The position numbers were made by a program, and so were the translations under genes. From Bacteroidetes bacterium ADurb.Bin217 (GTDB taxonomy: Bacteria; Bacteroidota; Bacteroidia; Bacteroidales; UBA1715), in assembly GCA_002069975.1 (NCBI GenBank), contig MWCJ01000002.1, positions 1 through 64,000 of the forward strand: a stretch of 64,000 bases of DNA, in the 5' to 3' direction. Shown here piece by piece: positions 3,893 through 52,902 of the stretch; position 1 is the stretch's first letter, and every line of letters starts with the position of its first letter. The notes below the pieces were generated by a model, which ran no database searches, had not been told where the DNA came from, and saw only the letters and a program-made list of their open reading frames with translations.

Positions 3893-6800
3893 ATGAGTCA
3901 GATTGAAACAAAATCTTTGTATGATCCAAGTTACGAGCACGATGCGTGTGGAATTGGGTTTATAGCAAATCTTAAAGGGGTAAAATCGCACAAAACAATT
4001 GACGATGCCTTAAAGATGCTTGAAAATATGGAGCATAGGGGTGCTGTTGGGTTCGAAGAAAATACAGGCGACGGTGCAGGAGTGTTAATTCAAATGCCAC
4101 ATAATTTCTTTAAAATTACGTGTAAAGAAATTGGTATTGACTTACCAGATTATGGTAAGTATGGCGTGGCAATGATTTACTTTCCTAAGAATGTAGTAAT
4201 GCGCGAAGCTTGTCGTAAAATTTTTAATGATTCTATAGAACATTTAGGTTTAGAATTATTGGGATATCGCAATGTTCCGGTATCGAACAAAACAATCGGA
4301 AAAACGGCAATAAGCACTGAACCTAAAATTGAACAAGCATTTATTGTTGCCAAAGATTCAAATTTGCCAAGTGATGCGTTGGAACGAAAACTTTTCGTAT
4401 TACGCAATTGGTCATATCATCAATTTTGTATAGAATTTCCTGAAAACAAAGACGATTTTTATATAGTATCTAGTTCTTACAAAAATATTACATACAAAGG
4501 ACAGTTAACAACGTTTCAAGTACGCGAATATTTTCTAGATTTGAGCGACGAACGATTAGATTCGGCATTTGCTATGATTCATTCTCGCTTTTCAACGAAT
4601 ACATTTCCGAAATGGAAATTAGCTCAACCATTCCGTTACATTGCACATAATGGTGAAATTAATACAATACGTGGCAATGTTAACTGGGCACATTGTAATC
4701 AAACATTGTTTGAATCTTCATTGTTTAGCAAAGACGAAATCGAAAAATTATTACCAATATGCGACCATGAAAATTCAGATTCGGCAAACCTCGACAATAT
4801 GATAGAAATGTTGGTGTTAGGTGGTCGCGAATTACCTCATGTAATGATGATGTTGGTTCCCGAAGCATGGCAAAACGACGAAGCATTACTTGACCCAAAA
4901 CGTGCATTCTACGAATTTCACAGTTCAATTGTAGAAGCGTGGGATGGTCCTGCATCTATTAGTTTTACCGATGGCCACATTATAGGTGCTACACTCGACC
5001 GTAATGGGTTACGACCTTCTCGCTATTGCTTACTCGACGACGGCACTTTAGTAATGTCTTCGGAAGCCGGGGCTTTACCTGTAGACCAAGCAAAAGTGGT
5101 AAAAAAAGGGCGTTTGGAACCGGGGAAAATGTTTGTTGTAGATCTCGACCAAGGACGTATTATCAGCGACGAAGAGCTTAAACAACGTATATGCAGCGAA
5201 CAACCATATCGCACATGGCTTGAGCAAAACGAAGTACATATAAACAAAATTCCTGCTCCCGAGCAACCAACATACCCCTACAATACAGAGACATTAAAAC
5301 AACGACAAATTTGTTATGGCTATACTACCGAAGCGGTTAAAGAAAATATTGCCGAAATGATTTCGCAAAAAACTGACCCTATCGGGTCTATGGGTAACGA
5401 TACACCATTGGCTATATTATCACAACAAAGTCGACATTTATCGAACTATTTCAAACAGCAATTTGCACAGGTTAGTAACCCTCCTATTGATGCTATTCGC
5501 GAAAAAATAATTATGTCTCTTAAAACGAGTGCAAGCCGTTCGTTTAATATGCTTTCGCAATCATCTGTTCACTGCAAACAAATTACGTTTGACCAACCGG
5601 TATTAACTAATGCTCAATTAGATGCTCTCAGACATATGAGTCATTCTGATTTTCGCGTAACTCAAATAAATGCGGTATTTCCTGCAAATGGAACTTCAGG
5701 TGATTTAGAAAAAGCATTACAAAAAATGTGTGCCGATGCCGATAAAGCTATTTTAGATTACACATCGAATATTTTATTGATTTCTGATAGAAATACCGAT
5801 GCAAACACAGCACCTATACCAACACTACTCGCTACCGGAGCTCTTCACAATCACTTAATTAAAAACGGATTACGTGTACGTGTAGGACTTATAGTAGAAG
5901 CAGGCGATGCATGGGAAACACATCATTTTGCAACTCTTATTGGTTACGGAGCAAATGCCGTTAATCCATATATGGCATTTGAAACTATAACTACTTTAGC
6001 CGATGAACGATACATAGCAAAAGATGTAAACGTAGAATCGGCGAATAAAACATATACCTATGCTATTGGAGCAGGATTACTCAAAATTTTCTCAAAAATG
6101 GGTATCTCAACTCTTCAATCGTACAAAGGAGCACAAATTTTCGAATGTTACGGTATTGGTAAACAAGTAATTGAAACTTGTTTCAACGGAACTGTATCAA
6201 AAATTGGAGGACTCGATTTCGACGATATTGCTCGCGAGGTTCTTGTTCGTCATCAAGCAGCTTATCCTCAATTACCTATTGTAAACCAACGGTTAGAAGA
6301 AGGTGGTATTCACCAATGGAAACATCGTGGCGAAAAACATTTATTCAATCCCGAAACTATAGCATTACTTCAACATGCAGTGCGAACAGGAAATAAAGAA
6401 ATTTATAAACAATATGCAAAAAAAGTAAACGATCAGGCCGAGCAACAATTTACACTACGTGGTTTATTAGAATTCAAAGGAAATCGTAAAGCAATTTCGA
6501 TAGACGAAGTAGAACCTGCAAGTGCTATTTTCCCACGATTTGCAACAGGAGCAATGTCGTTTGGATCTATTTCGCACGAAGCTCACACAACTTTGGCTAT
6601 TGCTATGAACCGCATAGGTGGACGCTCAAATTCAGGCGAAGGCGGCGAAGATGAAATACGATTTGTACAAAAAGAAAATGGCGACTGGGAACGTTCGGCT
6701 ATTAAACAAGTAGCATCGGGACGTTTTGGAGTTACCAGCAACTATTTAGCAAATTGTAACGAAATACAAATCAAAATGGCTCAAGGAGCAAAACCCGGTG

Positions 6801-8419
6801 AGGGTGGACAACTTCCGGGACATAAAGTTGACGACTGGATTGGACGAGTTCGTCACTCAACTCCGGGTGTTGGATTAATTTCTCCTCCCCCACATCACGA
6901 TATTTATTCTATTGAGGATTTAGCTCAATTGATTTTCGACTTAAAAAATGCAAATCCTACAGCTCAAATTAGTGTAAAATTAGTTTCAAAAGCTGGTGTT
7001 GGCACAATTGCAGCAGGGGTTTGTAAAGCTTTTGCCGATAAAGTATTAATTTCGGGACACGATGGTGGAACCGGAGCTTCACCTATCAGTTCTATTCACC
7101 ACACAGGTTCACCCTGGGAATTGGGATTGGCAGAAACTCACCAAACATTAGTTTTAAACAAATTACGCGATAGAATTATTGTACAAGCCGATGGTCAAAT
7201 GAAAACAGGTAGAGACCTTGCTATTGCTGCCCTTTTAGGTGCCGAAGAATGGGGTGTGGCTACTGCTGCTTTGGTTGCCGAAGGTTGTATTATGATGCGT
7301 AAATGTCATTTAAATACGTGCCCGGTAGGTGTTGCAACACAAAACAAAGACTTACGTAAAGTGTTTAAAGGTAAACCTGAACACGTAATAAATCTTATAA
7401 CATTTATGGTTGAGGAATTACGTGAAATAATGGCTCAAAATGGGTTTAAAACCGTAAACGAAATGATTGGACAAAGCGACACATTACGTCAACGAGAAGA
7501 TGTATCGTTTTGGAAAGTTCAAAAACTCGATTTAAGTCCTATTATATACAAAGTTCCTGCAGAACCAGGAGTTGGATTATATAAGTCTATTGCTCAAAAA
7601 CATAAAATTGCAGATGTTTTAGATCGCACATTAATAGAAAAAGCAAAACCTGCATTAGAGAAAAAACAAAAAGTTTCCGCAGAATTTCCTATTATAAATA
7701 CTGACCGAGCTGTGGGAACTATGTTATCGCATGAAATTTCCAAATTATATGGTGGCGAGGGATTACCTGAAGATACCATAACATATAAATTTAGAGGTTC
7801 GGCAGGACAAAGTTTTGGAGCATTCAGTCAAAAAGGTATTCGATTCGAACTCGAAGGTGAAGCTAATGACTATTTTGGCAAAGGCTTAAGTGGTGCTAAA
7901 TTAATAGTTGTTCCCGACAGAGATGCGAAGCTTGTTTCTGAAGAAAACGTAATTGTAGGTAACGTTTCATTTTATGGTGCAACAGATGGCGAAGCATATA
8001 TTAAAGGTATGGCAGGCGAACGATTTTGTATCAGAAACTCGGGAGTAAAAGCTGTAATCGAAGGAATTGGCAGTCACGGATGTGAATATATGACTGGTGG
8101 AATCGTGGTAGTGTTAGGTAAATTCGGACGTAATTTTGCAGCCGGCATGAGTGGTGGTATAGCTTATATTTACGACCCAGAAGGTATACTTCCGCAGACC
8201 TGCAACAAAGAATTGGTTGATTTAGAAGATGTAGCTTTTGAAGACATTCCGGAATTACGTCAACTTATTGAAAATCATAAAAATTACACGGGAAGTTCAT
8301 TAGCTACAAACATTTTAAACAATTGGGACGATTCAATTGACAAATTTGTAAAAGTATTCCCACGCGACTATAAACGAGTGCTTGAAGAACGTAAATTAAA
8401 AAAAGCAGCATCGGTATAA
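3893..8419 (+). CDS. gltB: Glutamate synthase, large (alpha) subunit
   Basis: Transfers the amide nitrogen of glutamine to 2-oxoglutarate, giving two glutamates. The 1508-residue length is typical of the alpha subunit. An N-terminal class II glutamine amidotransferase domain has the expected nucleophile at C19 (DACGIGFIAN), implying removal of an 18-residue propeptide. The central and FMN synthase domains follow, with the GHDGGTGASP loop. The three cysteines of the 3Fe-4S cluster are spaced C-x5-C-x4-C in GCIMMRKCHLNTC. A C-terminal GXGXG-type beta-helix (GGIVVVLGKFGRNFAAGMSG) ends the protein. It is followed 39 bases later by gltD, with which it forms the GOGAT enzyme. Confidence 0.97.
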   Translation: MSQIETKSLYDPSYEHDACGIGFIANLKGVKSHKTIDDALKMLENMEHRGAVGFEENTGDGAGVLIQMPHNFFKITCKEIGIDLPDYGKYGVAMIYFPKNVVMREACRKIFNDSIEHLGLELLGYRNVPVSNKTIGKTAISTEPKIEQAFIVAKDSNLPSDALERKLFVLRNWSYHQFCIEFPENKDDFYIVSSSYKNITYKGQLTTFQVREYFLDLSDERLDSAFAMIHSRFSTNTFPKWKLAQPFRYIAHNGEINTIRGNVNWAHCNQTLFESSLFSKDEIEKLLPICDHENSDSANLDNMIEMLVLGGRELPHVMMMLVPEAWQNDEALLDPKRAFYEFHSSIVEAWDGPASISFTDGHIIGATLDRNGLRPSRYCLLDDGTLVMSSEAGALPVDQAKVVKKGRLEPGKMFVVDLDQGRIISDEELKQRICSEQPYRTWLEQNEVHINKIPAPEQPTYPYNTETLKQRQICYGYTTEAVKENIAEMISQKTDPIGSMGNDTPLAILSQQSRHLSNYFKQQFAQVSNPPIDAIREKIIMSLKTSASRSFNMLSQSSVHCKQITFDQPVLTNAQLDALRHMSHSDFRVTQINAVFPANGTSGDLEKALQKMCADADKAILDYTSNILLISDRNTDANTAPIPTLLATGALHNHLIKNGLRVRVGLIVEAGDAWETHHFATLIGYGANAVNPYMAFETITTLADERYIAKDVNVESANKTYTYAIGAGLLKIFSKMGISTLQSYKGAQIFECYGIGKQVIETCFNGTVSKIGGLDFDDIAREVLVRHQAAYPQLPIVNQRLEEGGIHQWKHRGEKHLFNPETIALLQHAVRTGNKEIYKQYAKKVNDQAEQQFTLRGLLEFKGNRKAISIDEVEPASAIFPRFATGAMSFGSISHEAHTTLAIAMNRIGGRSNSGEGGEDEIRFVQKENGDWERSAIKQVASGRFGVTSNYLANCNEIQIKMAQGAKPGEGGQLPGHKVDDWIGRVRHSTPGVGLISPPPHHDIYSIEDLAQLIFDLKNANPTAQISVKLVSKAGVGTIAAGVCKAFADKVLISGHDGGTGASPISSIHHTGSPWELGLAETHQTLVLNKLRDRIIVQADGQMKTGRDLAIAALLGAEEWGVATAALVAEGCIMMRKCHLNTCPVGVATQNKDLRKVFKGKPEHVINLITFMVEELREIMAQNGFKTVNEMIGQSDTLRQREDVSFWKVQKLDLSPIIYKVPAEPGVGLYKSIAQKHKIADVLDRTLIEKAKPALEKKQKVSAEFPIINTDRAVGTMLSHEISKLYGGEGLPEDTITYKFRGSAGQSFGAFSQKGIRFELEGEANDYFGKGLSGAKLIVVPDRDAKLVSEENVIVGNVSFYGATDGEAYIKGMAGERFCIRNSGVKAVIEGIGSHGCEYMTGGIVVVLGKFGRNFAAGMSGGIAYIYDPEGILPQTCNKELVDLEDVAFEDIPELRQLIENHKNYTGSSLATNILNNWDDSIDKFVKVFPRDYKRVLEERKLKKAASV

Positions 8420-13182: not shown

Positions 13183-14340
13183 CTAATATCTCGAATAAAA
13201 CGATGACAATCTACTCGTTACCTGATCATAAATAGGTTTTGTAAATTCCACAAACAAATCTTGCGGTGCAGGTGGCTGTACTTCTCGTTGTTTTGTCATA
13301 TTTAACTGTTGTTGCGTTAGTGCTCTATCATCGCCGTTGAAACTTGCCCATTCGCTTATCCATATAAATTCTCCAGGCATTTTGTCTTGCATCAATATTT
13401 TTTTGGTAGCAAATTCTATCACTCGTACATCAACCAAACCTTTTGATATTACTTCTTTACGAAATGAGGTATACTCGGCTGTAACTCGATTTTTAACCGG
13501 AACTTTTGTACCATCGGGTTTAGTATATTCACCAACTTTCACACTATCTTTGCTGGTAACGGTAATCGTTTTTTGAGTCAATTTAGAATTTCCAACTATA
13601 AAATCATCAAATTGAATCCGAATCACATGATCTGGAACTAATTTCAGTTTTTCTGCTTGTCGCGGCAAATACAATTCAATAAATTGACGCGATTTAAACA
13701 TATCGTTGATATATGCTTCAATATTGTTTTGAAAAAATTCGGCACTTATTTGTAATCGACCTGCTCCTACGGGAATTTGTTCGAGTACTACTTTGAGAGT
13801 CGCCAATTCTTTTGCTTGAGGTATCAGTGTTTCTATATCTTTGTACCCGGCAACATAATTGCCTGCTTTCACAAATAAATAATATGCTTCGCGGGCTGTT
13901 TCACGTGTTTTTTTGTCGAATTCTCGTTTACCCGCCGCATAACATTCTTCAGCAGCATTTTTCTTTGCTGTATTCAACTCCGACTCGTAGCGAAACGGCG
14001 AGGGAACTATTTTTTTTGCTGCCGGGCAACGCGAAATTTCATTTGCCAGATTGTTTACCGTTTCCATATACTGTACGGTATATCCCCACTTAAATTGGTC
14101 ATTACTTTTGAGCGACAATTCTATTTGCTCTTTATAATAACTTACAGCCAAAGGATACGCCTGACGAAGAGTAGATGCTGCTTTTTTGTTTGTAGGACTT
14201 TTACGAAGTTTTTGTACCGACTTCAAAACTGCTTCGGCATAATTACCTTTTTCTAAAGCTTTTTTGCCCGAACACTGAACAAACAATACTGATGTAGAAA
14301 ACAAAAGAATTGCTATAACCGACGATGTAAATGCTTTCAT
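13183..14340 (-). CDS. Bacteroidota lipoprotein with helical repeat-like N-terminal half
   Basis: A 385-residue predicted lipoprotein. The signal peptide ends in VLFVQC with the lipidated Cys at residue 23. The next 170 residues are Lys/Ala-rich helices (GNYAEAVLKSVQKLRKSPTNKK, then a second EEC-YAAGKREFDKK-TREAYYLF pattern) that resemble degenerate TPR units. The C-terminal half looks beta-rich. I do not recognise a named family. It converges with ispH and stands alone on the minus strand, and nothing around it points to a pathway. Confidence 0.75.
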   Translation of the reverse strand: MKAFTSSVIAILLFSTSVLFVQCSGKKALEKGNYAEAVLKSVQKLRKSPTNKKAASTLRQAYPLAVSYYKEQIELSLKSNDQFKWGYTVQYMETVNNLANEISRCPAAKKIVPSPFRYESELNTAKKNAAEECYAAGKREFDKKTRETAREAYYLFVKAGNYVAGYKDIETLIPQAKELATLKVVLEQIPVGAGRLQISAEFFQNNIEAYINDMFKSRQFIELYLPRQAEKLKLVPDHVIRIQFDDFIVGNSKLTQKTITVTSKDSVKVGEYTKPDGTKVPVKNRVTAEYTSFRKEVISKGLVDVRVIEFATKKILMQDKMPGEFIWISEWASFNGDDRALTQQQLNMTKQREVQPPAPQDLFVEFTKPIYDQVTSRLSSFYSRY

Positions 14341-14419
14341 AGTAGTTAAAAATTACTGAGTAAAAATAAATGATTTTGAGAATAGTACCTCACCATTTCG
14401 CTTTTCAAACATAATGCCA

Positions 14420-14977
14420 TTACCCCGGCATTTCTGCATACATCAATTTTTTGCCGGTTACCGCAAGCGATATTGCCAAAGCAAGTGTAACAATGCTAGA
14501 TACTAAAATACCAATTTTACTTGCAAACGTATACTCATACACCACAGCAATCACTGCTACGACTATAGAACTCAATATCATAGCCGATCCTATTATAATT
14601 TTACGTCGTAAAGCAATCGTGCTTAGTTTTTTGAAACGCAATTTACCGTCTATTACCCCACTTACAAATGCCCCCACTACAGAAAACGGTAACAATACCG
14701 ACAAAAACAATACAAACGCAGCTATTTCTTGGGATTTAAAATCAGGTAAAACAATATTTAATAAGGCAAATTGCATAATAAACACTGCTATTGTTTGAGG
14801 AAAGTGAACAGCTATGGGATGTAAATCTAAATCAAGGAATTTTCTACGTTTTTCCGACATACGGTCTTTATATGGTTCAAAAACTTTACTCGACACACCG
14901 CAGGCAGGACATTCATCACCCAATTTATCTTTCTCCATGATATAGCCACATGGCTTGCATCTTACTAATTCTTTCAT
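14420..14977 (-). CDS. Rubredoxin-like zinc/iron ribbon plus DUF2231-type membrane protein
   Basis: About 185 residues. The N-terminus has two CxxC knuckles (VRCKPCGYIM and DECPACG), a rubredoxin or rubrerythrin-type metal ribbon. After a charged linker comes LDLHPIAVHFPQ, the opening signature of DUF2231-like membrane domains, then four hydrophobic helices. The histidines of LHPIAVHFP may bind metal or haem (inference). An electron-transfer role in the inner membrane is plausible but unproven. The start at 14977 (MKELVRC) was preferred. A start at 14983 adds only two residues. Confidence 0.75.
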   Translation of the reverse strand: MKELVRCKPCGYIMEKDKLGDECPACGVSSKVFEPYKDRMSEKRRKFLDLDLHPIAVHFPQTIAVFIMQFALLNIVLPDFKSQEIAAFVLFLSVLLPFSVVGAFVSGVIDGKLRFKKLSTIALRRKIIIGSAMILSSIVVAVIAVVYEYTFASKIGILVSSIVTLALAISLAVTGKKLMYAEMPG

Positions 14978-32047: not shown

Positions 32048-35000
32048 ATGAAAATTTTATACTCATGCATAGTTTGTTTTCTTTACTTGTTGACTTTTCT
32101 GTCATCACAAGCTCAATCGGTATTATCTAAAGGAACATGGGCAAAAATTTCTGTAACCGAATCGGGAGTTTATAAAATAACATACGACGAATTACTGGGA
32201 ATGGGATTTTCAAACCCTACAGCTATTAGCATTTATGGAAACGGAGCGCGCACACTTTCGTTGCAAAACCCAGAGGAATTACCTTCGGTTCTGCATGAAA
32301 TAGCTATTTTAGTTGATAAAGGCACCGATAATGTGTTTAATTCGGGTGATTATTTACTATTTTATGGTCAAGCTACAACCGGATGGAATTTTGATACAAC
32401 AAAAAAACAATTTAATTATAACAACCATCCGTATTGTCAAACAAATTATTACTACATCACAGATAAACAGGCAACTAAATACATTCAAACAGCAGCAACA
32501 CCAAATCTACCATACACTAAAACAGTTAACTCGTTCGACGATATGTATATCTATGAACAAAATACAATAAATCCCATAAAATCGGGACGAATGTGGTTTG
32601 AAACTATGGGAAATAAAACGATTTCATTTTCTATACCGCATCTAATTATTAGTAAACCGATTACTATTCATACGCAAGTTGCAGGCAGACATAATACATG
32701 GGGTAACATGTTTATTAAAATTAACAATCAAGCATTTGATACTATTCAAGTATGGGGGACAACTTCAAATTCACCTTATGCTGTTTTAAAATCAAGTCGC
32801 AAGCAATACATTAACAATTCTACGACTCTAAATCTCAATATTTATGCGGGATTTTCGGGTGTCGACAGTCGTTCATATATAGATTTTTGCTCAATTCATG
32901 CACGCAGCAATTTAACATTTCAAAATACACAACTACACTTTAGAGATACAGCTTCAGTTGGACCAAACACCTCAGCACAATTTCAAATTACATCTAATTC
33001 GCAAGCAACAGTGTGGGATATAACAAATCCGGAATTTCCTCAAAAAATAACAACTCAATTCTCAAACAACACCCTGACATTTACCAGTGATGTATCAACA
33101 TTACGAGAATTTATAACATTTTCTAACCAGTATAAATCAGTAACATTTGTATCGGCAATACAAAACCAAGACTTACTTTCGGATACCGATTACGATATGC
33201 TCATAATTTATAATAATCCCTTATTTATACCTTATGCCCAGCAAATAGCAGATGTTCACCAAACTTATGACAATATGCGTACAAGAATAGTTTCGCAGCA
33301 AGATATATTTACCGAATTTTCTGCCGGCAGAATTGATGTAAGTGCTCTTCGAAATTATATTCGTTGGGTTTACACAAAAAACAACGGCACATTACAATAT
33401 GTACTTTTATTTGGCGATGGCACCTATAATAATAATTTATGTTCAAATAACAGTAGCTACATTGCAACATTTCAATCATTAGAAAGTTTATATTCACATT
33501 CATCGTTTGTTTCCGACGATTTTTTTGGAATGCTGCAAAAAGGAGAAGGTGTAACACCGGAAGACACATTTGTTGGCGAATTAGACATTGCAATAGGTCG
33601 TTTTCCTGTAAATACAGAAAAAGAAGCAGAAGCTGTAGTTGCAAAAACTATAGATTACATTACGAAACCAGCTTACCGTGGCGACTGGCAAAATATACTG
33701 TGTTTACTTGCCGACGATGCCGACGAAAATCAGACCTTTCATATGACCGATGCCGATAAATTAGCACAAAATATACTTGAAACATATCCATATTTTAATA
33801 TCGAAAAAATTTACCTTGATGCATACAAACAAATAATTCGCAGTGCCGGACAACGTTATCCCGATGCAAACACAGCTGTAAACGAGCGAATGAAAAAAGG
33901 GTGTTTAGTATTTAATTATACAGGACACGGCAGCGAAATTCAAATGGCAGCAGAAAATATAATAAATGCTTCAGCCATAGAATCATGGAAAAATGGCAAC
34001 AAATTACCTCTTTTTATAACAGCATCATGCGAAATAGCTCGATTCGATGAACCCTCAATTACTTCATTGGGCGAAAAATTTATTTTACAACATAATGGTG
34101 GTGCTGTTGCATTATTTACTACTACGAGAGTTGTGTATGCGTTTTCAAATTACACACTCAATAATAATATATACAAATATCTATTTACGAAAGATGAATT
34201 GGGCAAACCTATTTCGATAGGTGAAGCATTTGTTCAAGCAAAAAAAGTTACACCTAATGATTTTAATCAAAACAAACGGAGCTTTACTCTTTTTGGCGAT
34301 CCGGCTTTACGACTAGCTGTTCCTGAATTAAGTATGCATATTGATTCAATTCAAAATATGCCAATAGCAAGTTTTACCGACACCTTACAATCTAAAACAA
34401 TTGTAACAATAAGCGGCTCTATTAAGAATTTTGAAGATGAAGTTCAGCAAGAATATTCAGGTACTGCATATATAAAAGTGTTTGACAAATCACAAAAAAT
34501 TTCAACATTAGGAAATGATGGTAATACCCCTATAGATTTTACAATTCAAAACAATATTCTGTTTCAAGGTAAAACTAGCGTTACAAACGGGCGTTTTTCA
34601 TCTGAATTTATAATTCCACAAGATATATATTACTTTAAAGGTAATGGGAAAATTAGTTTGTATTGCACAAACGACAGTATTCAAGGAACCGGGTATACGC
34701 ATGTTCCAATAAATGGAACAAATGCCTTTGCCGAAATTGACAGTATTGGTCCTCAAATACGATTATTTATGGGCGATACCCTATTTACATCGGGAGAAAT
34801 AACAAGTCAAACCCCTACTCTTTTGGTATATGTATATGACCAGTCAGGAATAAATATATCTGATGCCGCTATAGGTCATAGTATTACCTTAATACTTAAC
34901 GATGATTTTTCGAATCCAATTATACTTAATGAATTCTATTCTGCATCACTTAACACATACCAATACGGTACAATTCAATACCCGTTTTCTACCTTACCAG

Positions 35001-35401
35001 AAGGCACTCATACTATATATATAAAGGTATGGGATACTCACAACAACATGTCGGAAGAAAGCATAGAATTTAGAGTTGTACACAACTCAAACATTACACT
35101 ATATAATATATACACATTTCCCAACCCAATGAAAGACAACGTACATTTTCATATACAACATAATCAAGAATTAGAAAACATACGTGTACGTATAGTGCTC
35201 TATAATACAAGCGGCATGCGAGTGAAAACCATAGAACAAGAAATGCAACCACAAGGATATACTGAGCAATCGATTCTGTGGGATGGCACTACAGATTCGG
35301 GGTCACATATAGAGCCGGGCATATATCCATTTACTGTAGAATTAACTACAGAACAAGGAACAACAATACGTGGAAATCAAAAAATTTTAGTAATAAAATA
35401 A
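32048..35401 (+). CDS. porU: Type IX secretion C-terminal signal peptidase PorU
   Basis: The surface sortase-like protease of the T9SS. It removes the C-terminal sorting domain of cargo proteins and joins them to anionic lipopolysaccharide. The 1117-residue protein has a signal peptide (ending SSQAQ) and an N-terminal beta domain. A gingipain-type C25 peptidase domain has catalytic H627 (FNYTGHGSE) and C661 (FITASCEIARFD). A C-terminal tail has FPNPMKDNVHF and a FlgD-like WDGTTDSGSHIEPGIYPF. The order gldJ / porU-porV is known from Flavobacteriia. It is divergent from the PorP/SprF-like gene. Confidence 0.94.
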   Translation: MKILYSCIVCFLYLLTFLSSQAQSVLSKGTWAKISVTESGVYKITYDELLGMGFSNPTAISIYGNGARTLSLQNPEELPSVLHEIAILVDKGTDNVFNSGDYLLFYGQATTGWNFDTTKKQFNYNNHPYCQTNYYYITDKQATKYIQTAATPNLPYTKTVNSFDDMYIYEQNTINPIKSGRMWFETMGNKTISFSIPHLIISKPITIHTQVAGRHNTWGNMFIKINNQAFDTIQVWGTTSNSPYAVLKSSRKQYINNSTTLNLNIYAGFSGVDSRSYIDFCSIHARSNLTFQNTQLHFRDTASVGPNTSAQFQITSNSQATVWDITNPEFPQKITTQFSNNTLTFTSDVSTLREFITFSNQYKSVTFVSAIQNQDLLSDTDYDMLIIYNNPLFIPYAQQIADVHQTYDNMRTRIVSQQDIFTEFSAGRIDVSALRNYIRWVYTKNNGTLQYVLLFGDGTYNNNLCSNNSSYIATFQSLESLYSHSSFVSDDFFGMLQKGEGVTPEDTFVGELDIAIGRFPVNTEKEAEAVVAKTIDYITKPAYRGDWQNILCLLADDADENQTFHMTDADKLAQNILETYPYFNIEKIYLDAYKQIIRSAGQRYPDANTAVNERMKKGCLVFNYTGHGSEIQMAAENIINASAIESWKNGNKLPLFITASCEIARFDEPSITSLGEKFILQHNGGAVALFTTTRVVYAFSNYTLNNNIYKYLFTKDELGKPISIGEAFVQAKKVTPNDFNQNKRSFTLFGDPALRLAVPELSMHIDSIQNMPIASFTDTLQSKTIVTISGSIKNFEDEVQQEYSGTAYIKVFDKSQKISTLGNDGNTPIDFTIQNNILFQGKTSVTNGRFSSEFIIPQDIYYFKGNGKISLYCTNDSIQGTGYTHVPINGTNAFAEIDSIGPQIRLFMGDTLFTSGEITSQTPTLLVYVYDQSGINISDAAIGHSITLILNDDFSNPIILNEFYSASLNTYQYGTIQYPFSTLPEGTHTIYIKVWDTHNNMSEESIEFRVVHNSNITLYNIYTFPNPMKDNVHFHIQHNQELENIRVRIVLYNTSGMRVKTIEQEMQPQGYTEQSILWDGTTDSGSHIEPGIYPFTVELTTEQGTTIRGNQKILVIK

Positions 35402-35428
35402 TATGGTCTGCATACTAAAATTAAACTA

Positions 35429-35458
35429 TTTGAGTTACAAAGAAAAATTATATATTTG
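35429..35458 (+). promoter_or_regulatory. Promoter for porV
   Basis: TTTG at 35429-35432 precedes TATATTTG at 35451-35458 by 18 bases, a good Bacteroidota promoter match in the 90-base gap after porU. It suggests that porV has its own promoter as well as any read-through from porU. Confidence 0.7.
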
Positions 35459-35491
35459 CATTTTAAACATTGAATTTAACAAATTAAACTC

Positions 35492-36715
35492 ATGAATACA
35501 AAAATCCGGTTAGTATCTACAATTGCAATATTCTGCTCATTTATATCAATTCAAGCACAAGTTGGCGATGAATACCATGGAGTAACAAGTCAAAATTTAT
35601 CACAAGAATACAATGTTATTACCACAGCTGTTCCGTTTATGACAATTACACCCGATTCTCGTTCGGGTGGTATGGGCGATGTAGGAGCAGCTACTCCTAC
35701 CGACGTATGGTCGCAAAGTTGGAATGCTTCAAAATATGCACTTTCAGAAAAGGACATGTCGGCAGGTATTTCGTACACACCATGGCTAGAAAATATGGGA
35801 ATAAAAGATATAAATTTAATATATGCCGCAGGATATAAAAAACTAAAACAAACCGAAGCTGTTGGAGCATCACTTCGATATTTTTCGTTAGGAGAAATTC
35901 CTGCATACGATGACAACGGTAATGCCGCAGGATATACTATTTCTCCAAAAGAATATGCATTTGACCTTTCATATTCTCGTTTTTTATCTGACTATTTCGT
36001 AATGGCAATGACCGGACGATTTATATATTCGAATCTTACCGGTGATACTGACCCCGATTATAAACCAGGCAAATCGGTAGCCGCCGACATATCAGGTACA
36101 TTTTTCAAAGAATTAACAAATAAAAATTTACTTACAATTGGGTTTAATCTTTCGAATTTAGGTTCTAAAATAGCATATTCATCGACTCAAAAAGATTTTA
36201 TACCTACGAACTTAAAATTAGGGGCAGGTTATAAATTAGCAATTGACAATTATAACAAAGTAGGCTTTTATTTAGACCTCAACAAATTATTGGTACCTAC
36301 GCCACCTAAAAAAATATTTGAAACCGATAGTTTAGGTAATCAAGTTGAAGTAATTTTTGGTAACGATGACGAAAATCTTTCTCCTGTTTCAGGAATGTTC
36401 CAATCGTTTGCCGATGCACCGGGTGGTTTCAAAGAAGAAATGAAAGAATTTATAGTTTCGGGAGGATTAGAGTATTGGTATAATGAGCAATTTGCCATTC
36501 GTGCCGGTTATTTTCATGAAGCAGAAACCAAAGGTGACAGAAAATTCTTTACAGCAGGTGCCGGATTACGATTAAATGTATTTGGATTAGATTTTTCGTA
36601 TTTAATTCCGGTAAACGGCACAAATTCTCCAATAGCAAACACCTTCCGTTTTTCACTTACATTTGATTTCGACGGCTTAGCACAAGAGAGTAAATCAAGC
36701 ATGGATGCAATGTAA
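35492..36715 (+). CDS. porV: Type IX secretion outer-membrane shuttle protein PorV
   Basis: A FadL-like outer-membrane protein that receives T9SS cargo at the translocon and hands it to the PorU attachment complex. The 407-residue protein has a signal peptide ending SIQAQ, then TAVPFMTITPDSRSGGMGD, the diagnostic opening of the family, followed by GDVGAATPTDVWSQSWNASK. Barrel strands continue to the end, including FAIRAGYFHEAETKGDRKFF and a final aromatic strand. It follows porU and is 7 bases from the ispF start. Confidence 0.93.
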   Translation: MNTKIRLVSTIAIFCSFISIQAQVGDEYHGVTSQNLSQEYNVITTAVPFMTITPDSRSGGMGDVGAATPTDVWSQSWNASKYALSEKDMSAGISYTPWLENMGIKDINLIYAAGYKKLKQTEAVGASLRYFSLGEIPAYDDNGNAAGYTISPKEYAFDLSYSRFLSDYFVMAMTGRFIYSNLTGDTDPDYKPGKSVAADISGTFFKELTNKNLLTIGFNLSNLGSKIAYSSTQKDFIPTNLKLGAGYKLAIDNYNKVGFYLDLNKLLVPTPPKKIFETDSLGNQVEVIFGNDDENLSPVSGMFQSFADAPGGFKEEMKEFIVSGGLEYWYNEQFAIRAGYFHEAETKGDRKFFTAGAGLRLNVFGLDFSYLIPVNGTNSPIANTFRFSLTFDFDGLAQESKSSMDAM

Positions 36716-50580: not shown

Positions 50581-50835
50581 ATGGCAAATCATAAATCGTC
50601 AATAAAAAGAATTCGTCAAACTGAAACGAAACGTGTACATAATAAATATTATGCTAAAACTACACGTAATGCGGTAAAAAAATTACAAACAGCAACAGAT
50701 GTTTCTGAAGCAAAAGAAATGTTACCAAAAGTAACTGCAATGCTTGATAAACTTGCAAAGAAAAATATCATTCATAAAAACAAAGCTTCAAACTTAAAAT
50801 CTTCGATTACAAAACATGTTAATTCTTTAGCATAA
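50581..50835 (+). CDS. rpsT: 30S ribosomal protein bS20
   Basis: An 84-residue, very basic small-subunit protein with the family opening [20 protein letters not shown] and a helical body ending [11 protein letters not shown]. The start at 50581 was chosen because the frame extends into the tRNA upstream. It shares the tRNA-Glu promoter. Confidence 0.96.
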
Positions 50836-50863
50836 TTTTTTGCTTGAATTCTTATAATATTGG

Positions 50864-50894
50864 AAGCCTCTGTGTTCAACAGGGGCTTTTTTTG
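50864..50894 (+). terminator. Terminator after rpsT
   Basis: AAGCCTCTG (50864-50872) pairs with CAGGGGCTT (50880-50888), with one G-U pair, around a 7-base loop, then a run of T. Confidence 0.88.
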
Positions 50895-50932
50895 TTTAAT
50901 TTTATCATATATTTACCTAAAATTTTGAAAAT

Positions 50933-51946
50933 ATGAAATTAGAAAAAATTATTGTTATAGTAATTGCATGCTTTATAGCTCTGCCAATGAGTTTGTTAGC
51001 AAAAAATTACAAAGGAGCCGAAATATATTCAAATCAATCGTATTTATATGGTCGTTTCGAAATGCGTATCCAATCAGCTCCGGGAAGTGGACAATTATCT
51101 ACATTTTTTTTATACCGAAATAATTCGGAAACAGCAACCACATTATGGCAAGAAATTGATATTGAAATTTTCGGCAAAAACAATAATCAATTTCAATCGA
51201 ATGTAATAATAGAAAAAGTAGAAGGAACAAAAATAATGAGCGAAAAAAAACATACAACTCCAACCTCAACACAAGAGTTTAATATATATGTACTTGAATG
51301 GACACCCGATTCTATAAATTGGTATGTAAACGACTCGTTATATAACACCGAAAAAACGAATGCAGCTTATTGTAATGCAGCAATGAGCATACGATTTAAC
51401 CATTGGGTAGCCAATAATACCGCTTGGGTTGGAGTATTTGATAAAACTGTATTACCTTCATACCAATTGGTCGATTACATTTCGTATTCATCATACACTC
51501 CTGGCACCGGCGATAATGGCAGCGATTATAGTTTTGAATGGAAAGATGATTTTGATTCGTTTAATTCTTCTCGTTGGTCCAAAGCAAATTGGACATTTGG
51601 CGAAAACCTATGCGATTTTTTACCGGAAAATGCGTATACCGAGCAAGGGAATTTAGTGCTAAAACTTCATAGTATAATTCTTCCAACAGATATTGAATCT
51701 ATTTCAACCAATTCAATTCATATTTTCCCCAATCCCTGTACTGATTTTATTTACATTCAGTGCAACGAAGCCATTGAATATGAAATATATTCTTCAATTG
51801 GCAAGTGCGTAGTTCAAAGGCAAACTATAGAAAATCCAAAAAACACTCCTATCTACCTACCTACTCATATTTCGGCAGGAACATATTATATAAGAGTATA
51901 CCGATTGCAACAAGCGAGTAAAGAATTTACGATAATAAAAAGATAG
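50933..51946 (+). CDS. Circularly permuted GH16 lichenase-like glucanase with T9SS tail
   Basis: A 337-residue secreted enzyme likely to cut mixed-linked beta-1,3-1,4-glucans. A signal peptide ends near residue 23. The GH16 catalytic motif is E74-I-D76-I-E78 (WQEIDIEIFG), nucleophile and acid/base. The strands that normally lie at the N-terminus of GH16 lichenases (DDFDSFNSSRW, WTFGENLCDF, NLVLKL) come after the catalytic part, following TPGTGDNGSDYSFEWK. This is the order of the natural permutant from Fibrobacter succinogenes. The last 80 residues (IFPNPCTDFIYI, AGTYYIRVY) are a type A T9SS sorting domain. The gene is alone on its strand. Confidence 0.9.
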   Translation: MKLEKIIVIVIACFIALPMSLLAKNYKGAEIYSNQSYLYGRFEMRIQSAPGSGQLSTFFLYRNNSETATTLWQEIDIEIFGKNNNQFQSNVIIEKVEGTKIMSEKKHTTPTSTQEFNIYVLEWTPDSINWYVNDSLYNTEKTNAAYCNAAMSIRFNHWVANNTAWVGVFDKTVLPSYQLVDYISYSSYTPGTGDNGSDYSFEWKDDFDSFNSSRWSKANWTFGENLCDFLPENAYTEQGNLVLKLHSIILPTDIESISTNSIHIFPNPCTDFIYIQCNEAIEYEIYSSIGKCVVQRQTIENPKNTPIYLPTHISAGTYYIRVYRLQQASKEFTIIKR

Positions 51947-51975
51947 AATATATTAACAGAATTTATTTCAATTTT

Positions 51976-52902
51976 TCACTTCTTATTCCCAAAGATTTTT
52001 TGAAATAATGTACCCAATAAAGGTATATTATATAAAAACAGCACAAGAAGTATTTTATTCGTTTTACCGTTATATCCGGGAGGATACAAAACAAAAGACC
52101 TAATAATAGCCGAATACATACAAGCCAATTCTCTATGAGTATTGCAATACTGTGCAATATGAAAATAACACATACTTAGTAATTTACATTTTGTAACTAC
52201 CGGAAATCTTCGACACAATTCTGGTTTAGCAAATATTCGTTTGTAATTTTCTAATTCTTTAAATGCTTTACGAGAATCGCCTCCGGTAAACGATTCGGCA
52301 TGATGCACATATACAGTAGTCCGCTCTTGTATTTGCAGTACAGGATATTGAGTCGCAATGCGAGCTGCCAAATCTAAATCTTCGCAGACATATACTGCAG
52401 GATCAAACACAAATTGCTGTATAATAGACGAATGAATACACATACGTTGAGGATTAAATGTATACAAACCTATATACTCAAATACATTATAGCGTGTTAT
52501 ATCCGGACAGGGTCGTTCTTGCAATTCGTTATTGTATAAATTCCACGAATTTGTAAAAAACAACGCCGTTGGATTTTGACGTTCAAGAATGTGCGAATAT
52601 AACGTTTGCAAATGATGCGGTAAATGATAATCGTCGCTGTCTAAAAAACAAATATAAGTACCACGAGCCATGGCAATTCCCCTATTACGGCTATTGCAAC
52701 GTTCAATATTTATATCATTTTTCACATATCGAATTCGCGAATCGTGGTACGATTGAATAATTTGAGCTGTATTATCGGTTGAAGCGTCATCAACCAGTAT
52801 CAACTCAAAATCAGTATATGTTTGATTAAGGACACTGTCAACAGCTTTAGCTATGAATTTTTCGCGATTATATACCGGTAATATGACTGAGAAAAATGGC
52901 AT
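51976..52902 (-). CDS. Family 2 glycosyltransferase
   Basis: A 308-residue GT-A enzyme with the usual opening FSVILPVYNREKFIAKAVDS, the nucleotide-binding LVDDASTDNTAQII, the metal-binding CFLDSDDYHL near residue 90 and CEDLDLAARIATQYP near residue 185. It probably works in surface polysaccharide or glycolipid synthesis. It lies 3 bases after the DoxX/thioredoxin-like gene on the same strand and converges on the GH16 gene. Confidence 0.9.
   Translation of the reverse strand: MPFFSVILPVYNREKFIAKAVDSVLNQTYTDFELILVDDASTDNTAQIIQSYHDSRIRYVKNDINIERCNSRNRGIAMARGTYICFLDSDDYHLPHHLQTLYSHILERQNPTALFFTNSWNLYNNELQERPCPDITRYNVFEYIGLYTFNPQRMCIHSSIIQQFVFDPAVYVCEDLDLAARIATQYPVLQIQERTTVYVHHAESFTGGDSRKAFKELENYKRIFAKPELCRRFPVVTKCKLLSMCYFHIAQYCNTHRELACMYSAIIRSFVLYPPGYNGKTNKILLVLFLYNIPLLGTLFQKIFGNKK

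Follow-up and report, generated by a model that had tools for sequence, protein, structure and literature searches.

The window, by which we mean the whole stretch of 64,000 nucleotides analysed here, carries a gene for a circularly permuted lichenase and, in a separate part of the same strand, adjacent genes for a PorU-like protein and PorV (32048-36715). The features discussed below are the following:

32048..35401, + strand: PorU-like C25 sortase (PF01364, E = 2e-98) with a FlgD_ig C-terminal domain, the predicted processor of T9SS cargo including this enzyme
35492..36715, + strand: PorV, T9SS outer-membrane cargo shuttle (PF19572, E = 2e-60)
50933..51946, + strand: whole lichenase gene, 337 aa with an ATG start, comprising a signal peptide, a circularly permuted GH16 lichenase and a T9SS type A sorting domain
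50933..51001, + strand: signal peptide, residues ~1-23, a hydrophobic N-terminus with an inferred cleavage site; similarity to F. succinogenes mature enzyme sets in at residue 22-23
50999..51493, + strand: catalytic GH16 segment, residues ~23-187, containing EIDIE with E74, D76 and E78
51494..51529, + strand: linker between the ancestral C- and N-termini, residues ~188-199, aligned to F. succinogenes YTPGQGEGGSDF
51524..51670, + strand: relocated segment, residues ~198-246 (DYSFEWKDDFD...NLVLKL), N-terminal in unpermuted lichenases
51722..51943, + strand: T9SS type A C-terminal sorting domain, residues 264-337, with PF18962 and TIGR04183 above cut-off

The lichenase gene forms a single-gene unit behind the rpsT terminator; tRNA-Glu and rpsT lie upstream of it, and the neighbouring GT2 gene is convergent with it. 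No second GH16 gene was detected in the genome, and the G+C content of the lichenase gene (33%) differs little from the 34% of the window. In the sole other sampled genome of the genus (G003), rpsT is followed after 40 bp by a homologous GT2 gene (69% identity), and the rpsT terminator region is common to both loci (479-1700 of L099, contig G003:C283, against 50581-52902 of the window). This rpsT-GT2 junction, together with the shared terminator region, marks the lichenase as a clean single-gene presence/absence difference; the rest of G003 (94% complete) yielded no permuted lichenase.

The first-pass annotation had read this gene as a natural circular permutant on the strength of four conserved segments, all of which we found in the open reading frame in the order that it gave. 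Pfam places GH16 (PF00722) at residues 19-164 (97.1 bits, gathering score 22), stopping where it would be expected to stop if the remainder of the fold sits elsewhere in the chain. A phmmer search of PDB sequences agrees with the proposed likeness to the Fibrobacter enzyme: residues 22-245 are collinear with F. succinogenes 1mve (E = 4.9e-59), whereas the alignment of the unpermuted lichenases 3wvj, 3o5s, 1mac and 1gbg is confined to residues ~25-187. The engineered permutant 1cpm aligns to residues 29-245. Searched alone, the segment after residue 187 matches residues 168-225 of the F. succinogenes enzyme (E = 2e-15) and also, though weakly, the N-terminus (residues 12-51) of unpermuted 3wvj (E = 0.024). 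Further, unpermuted Bacteroidota relatives match the two parts of the window domain in reverse order inside one protein, as in L083, where the counterpart of the C-terminal segment lies at 115-164 and that of the catalytic segment at 171-345 (E = 8e-10 and 2e-20, in a small database). A profile check agrees with the rotation but is not independent of it, because the profiles were built with rotated unpermuted rows. Taken together, these sequence comparisons place the permutation of the domain far beyond chance, and we regard it as confirmed. A permuted jelly roll is predicted for the protein from its 42% identity to 1mve; AlphaFold models built from two shallow inputs, a single sequence and a three-row alignment, were too poor to bear on the fold (pLDDT 36.7 and 47.6).

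The T9SS sorting tail that had been proposed behind the permuted domain was recovered by two models, Por_Secre_tail (PF18962) at residues 264-330 (30.8 bits, cut-off 27) and TIGR04183 at residues 264-336 (26.3 bits, cut-off 23). The genome also encodes SprA (E = 4e-151) and ~60 other TIGR04183 tails. Such a sorting tail, in a genome with SprA, PorU and PorV, suggests that the protein is a T9SS type A cargo. The lignocellulolytic enzymes of F. succinogenes have themselves been proposed as T9SS cargo (PMC6851124), so the T9SS link of the window enzyme is not unusual.

The catalytic segment points to a mixed-linkage glucanase. Lichenases of the subfamily GH16_21 are marked by an EXDXE motif without a beta-bulge and by lichenase aromatic residues, and cleave beta-1,4 bonds in mixed-linkage glucan (PMC6827312). 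The window protein has these features, with EIDIE at residues 74-78 without a beta-bulge and conserved lichenase aromatics including W158 and W165, and its catalytic segment groups in the tree with lichenases and not with more distant GH16 rows. Across 13 permuted proteins from several lineages, E30, W72, E74, D76, E78, N90, W123, N156, W158 and W165 are invariant. We infer an exported mixed-linkage beta-glucan hydrolase acting as a retaining endo-1,3-1,4-beta-glucanase. The signal peptide would direct Sec export, and the permuted chain would, by homology, adopt the beta-jelly-roll of F. succinogenes 1mve, and E74 and E78 would serve as nucleophile and acid/base, respectively, in a retaining mechanism. 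The C-terminal domain would then route the protein through SprA and PorV, with PorU removing the tail and the enzyme being released or anchored at the surface, where it may hydrolyse beta-1,4 bonds adjoining the beta-1,3 kinks of mixed-linkage beta-glucan. It is also conceivable that the protein, though permuted, has laminarin or some other glucan as its main substrate, or is inactive. Two homologues in a genome of the same family (G002) lend this some colour, the copy on C46 adjoining a laminarinase-like GH16 gene and that on C95 an alginate-lyase-like gene; the EIDIE motif without a beta-bulge and the conserved lichenase-type aromatic positions speak against it, as does the fact that the nearest solved homologues are 1,3-1,4-beta-glucanases, and we judge it distinctly improbable. 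An exported member of a natural clade of permuted GH16 lichenases (GH16_21-like), working by the steps proposed here, is very probably the best explanation overall.

We used the window protein as query in a census of overlapping samples summing to 1,743 genome look-ups, in which the counts depend on the way the genome samples were drawn. Matches spanning the full domain came from the classes to which G022 (42/294 genomes), G019 (all 4 genomes) and G293 (3/98 genomes) belong, and from the window's own class, Bacteroidia (10/395 sampled genomes). The rarity of the permuted form that the first-pass annotation implied is thus not what we observe: homologues sharing the rotation occur widely across Bacteroidota, and the window gene is an ordinary member among them. 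Nor is the union of permuted domain and T9SS tail special, since many permuted homologues in Bacteroidota carry such tails. A scan of viral contigs found no relative, the one scan of genome contigs found just two, both unpermuted, and plasmids gave no match spanning 80% of the query, those listed stopping at residue 187-194. Open-library searches found no survey of permuted lichenases, which is not proof of absence; the text of the GH16 subfamily paper mentions neither permutation nor Fibrobacter (PMC6827312).

The permuted homologues show three main architectures. The first is short and joins a signal peptide, the permuted GH16 domain and a T9SS tail (the window, G002, G171 and family f195); the second is ~600 aa long, with malectin and a T9SS-type tail; the third, in genus g3, is lipoprotein-like and lacks a T9SS tail, some members having Listeria-Bacteroides repeats. 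The g3 forms (L054 4929-6158; L007 892-2187; L053 2084-2989) look like a different surface route within the same family. Divergent permuted lichenases of families f188 and f8 (L106-L109; L048 4810-6063) have a CBM48/AMPK-CBM-like domain behind the permuted domain. In G002, an alginate-lyase-like T9SS protein and a hybrid two-component regulator are encoded immediately ahead of one permuted lichenase (L046 18-7734). At another locus (L045, contig G293:C420), a permuted and an unpermuted lichenase lie ~6.5 kb apart (5153-7027 and 13478-14485) in one sugar-related cluster that also has, by names read from sequence, an MFS porter, a GH125-like protein, a ROK kinase and LamG-like T9SS proteins. This pair is a candidate place for tracing the route of duplication. 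No duplication intermediate, in which the relocated segment flanks the catalytic part on both sides, was present among 77 proteins.

A tree of the catalytic segment requires no rotation of any sequence; it was outgroup-rooted, and several of its unpermuted rows are long. All 59 permuted rows lie on one side of a single branch (support 99/93) with the 17 unpermuted rows opposite, a pattern that fits a single origin of the permutation. In this phylogeny, which the first-pass annotation had proposed as a check, the window protein does not group with unpermuted GH16 enzymes. Independent rotation in the window lineage and in Fibrobacter would have some precedent in the tolerance of the jelly roll to permutation, the engineered forms 1cpm, 1cpn, 1ajk and 1ajo having solved structures. 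Against such convergence, the two are cut at the same point and have similar linkers (YTPGxGxxGSDF/Y), and the placement of all permuted rows beyond one branch of the catalytic-only tree led us to reject it as exceedingly improbable.

In the domain trees, for which unpermuted rows were rotated before inclusion, F. succinogenes is joined to genus g3 (100/97) within a clade of 15 rows (100/100); every other row of that clade, the window protein included, comes from the window's class. Approximately unbiased (AU) tests, for groups that were named after a tree had been seen, rejected a position of F. succinogenes outside all permuted Bacteroidota (p = 0.001) and did not reject one just outside the 14 other rows of its clade, all Bacteroidia (p = 0.15); positions outside the window's family (f1) alone and outside f1 plus f195, a family of another order in the same class, gave p = 0.066 and p = 0.094 and were likewise not rejected. 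An earlier tree without f195 had given p = 0.038 for the f1-only test, and we prefer the later figures. An exclusive group of f1 and F. succinogenes, seen in the first tree, was dropped once f195 was added.

The nesting of F. succinogenes among Bacteroidota sequences makes Bacteroidota to Fibrobacter the likelier direction of transfer, and its copy was probably acquired, to go by these trees, from within the Bacteroidota radiation or from a close unsampled relative. The Fibrobacterota are represented by one sequence, taken from the PDB alignment, and more could shift the donor or reveal a radiation of their own. That single sequence leaves some room for a permuted lichenase born in Fibrobacterota or in an unsampled FCB lineage and moved into Bacteroidota once or repeatedly, as does the patchy distribution in the window's order, where full-domain matches are confined to f1 among 393 genomes. 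Permuted rows of several Bacteroidota classes fall outside the F. succinogenes clade, however, and a position of F. succinogenes beyond all of these is the one that the AU test rejected, so we consider such an origin unlikely. With moderate confidence we favour a permutation that arose once in Bacteroidota/FCB and spread widely, often as T9SS cargo, the F. succinogenes permutant being a laterally acquired Bacteroidota enzyme. Transfer and shared ancestry of the permuted form had been offered by the first-pass annotation as separate possibilities; both find support, the former in the nesting of F. succinogenes and the latter in the single-origin pattern.

The F. succinogenes lichenase is a standard example of natural circular permutation, and a rotation common to a broad Bacteroidota clade, with Fibrobacter nested in it, gives that example an evolutionary history. 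The many natural homologues could also serve in experiments on what stability and secretion owe to the position of the termini and to C-terminal modules (T9SS tail, malectin, CBM48-like). Interest lies in how the permuted form is distributed and in the nested position of the Fibrobacter enzyme; the window gene itself is ordinary.

Among known enzymes, the F. succinogenes 1,3-1,4-beta-D-glucanase (1mve, 1zm1, 2r49, 3h0o) has the same rotation, cut point and catalytic residues as the window protein and a similar linker, with 42% identity across the domain. In the full-length F. succinogenes enzyme the domain is followed by Ser/Pro-rich repeats and then a basic C-terminal region, whereas in the window protein a type A T9SS sorting domain can be recognised shortly past the catalytic domain. 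The permuted lichenases of G002 have the same domain order and 63-66% domain identity, and those of genus g575 (family f195) the same order and 53-55%; in both G002 copies and in L103 the sorting domain exceeds the Pfam cut-off, and in L104 and L105 it falls slightly short of it. The G002 copies adjoin other polysaccharide genes, whereas the window gene stands alone behind rpsT. The ~600 aa permuted lichenases (class of G022, family f14) resemble the window protein in having the permuted GH16 domain near the N-terminus; those scanned have a T9SS-type tail (under cut-off in 1/3) but differ in the malectin between catalytic domain and tail, and mostly show 32-41% domain identity. The Bacillus and Clostridium lichenases (1gbg, 2ayh, 3wvj) share family and catalytic motif with the window protein but are unpermuted: the window's catalytic segment (~23-187) is the counterpart of the C-terminal three quarters of the Bacillus enzymes, and the segment relocated in the window sits at the N-terminus of these lichenases.
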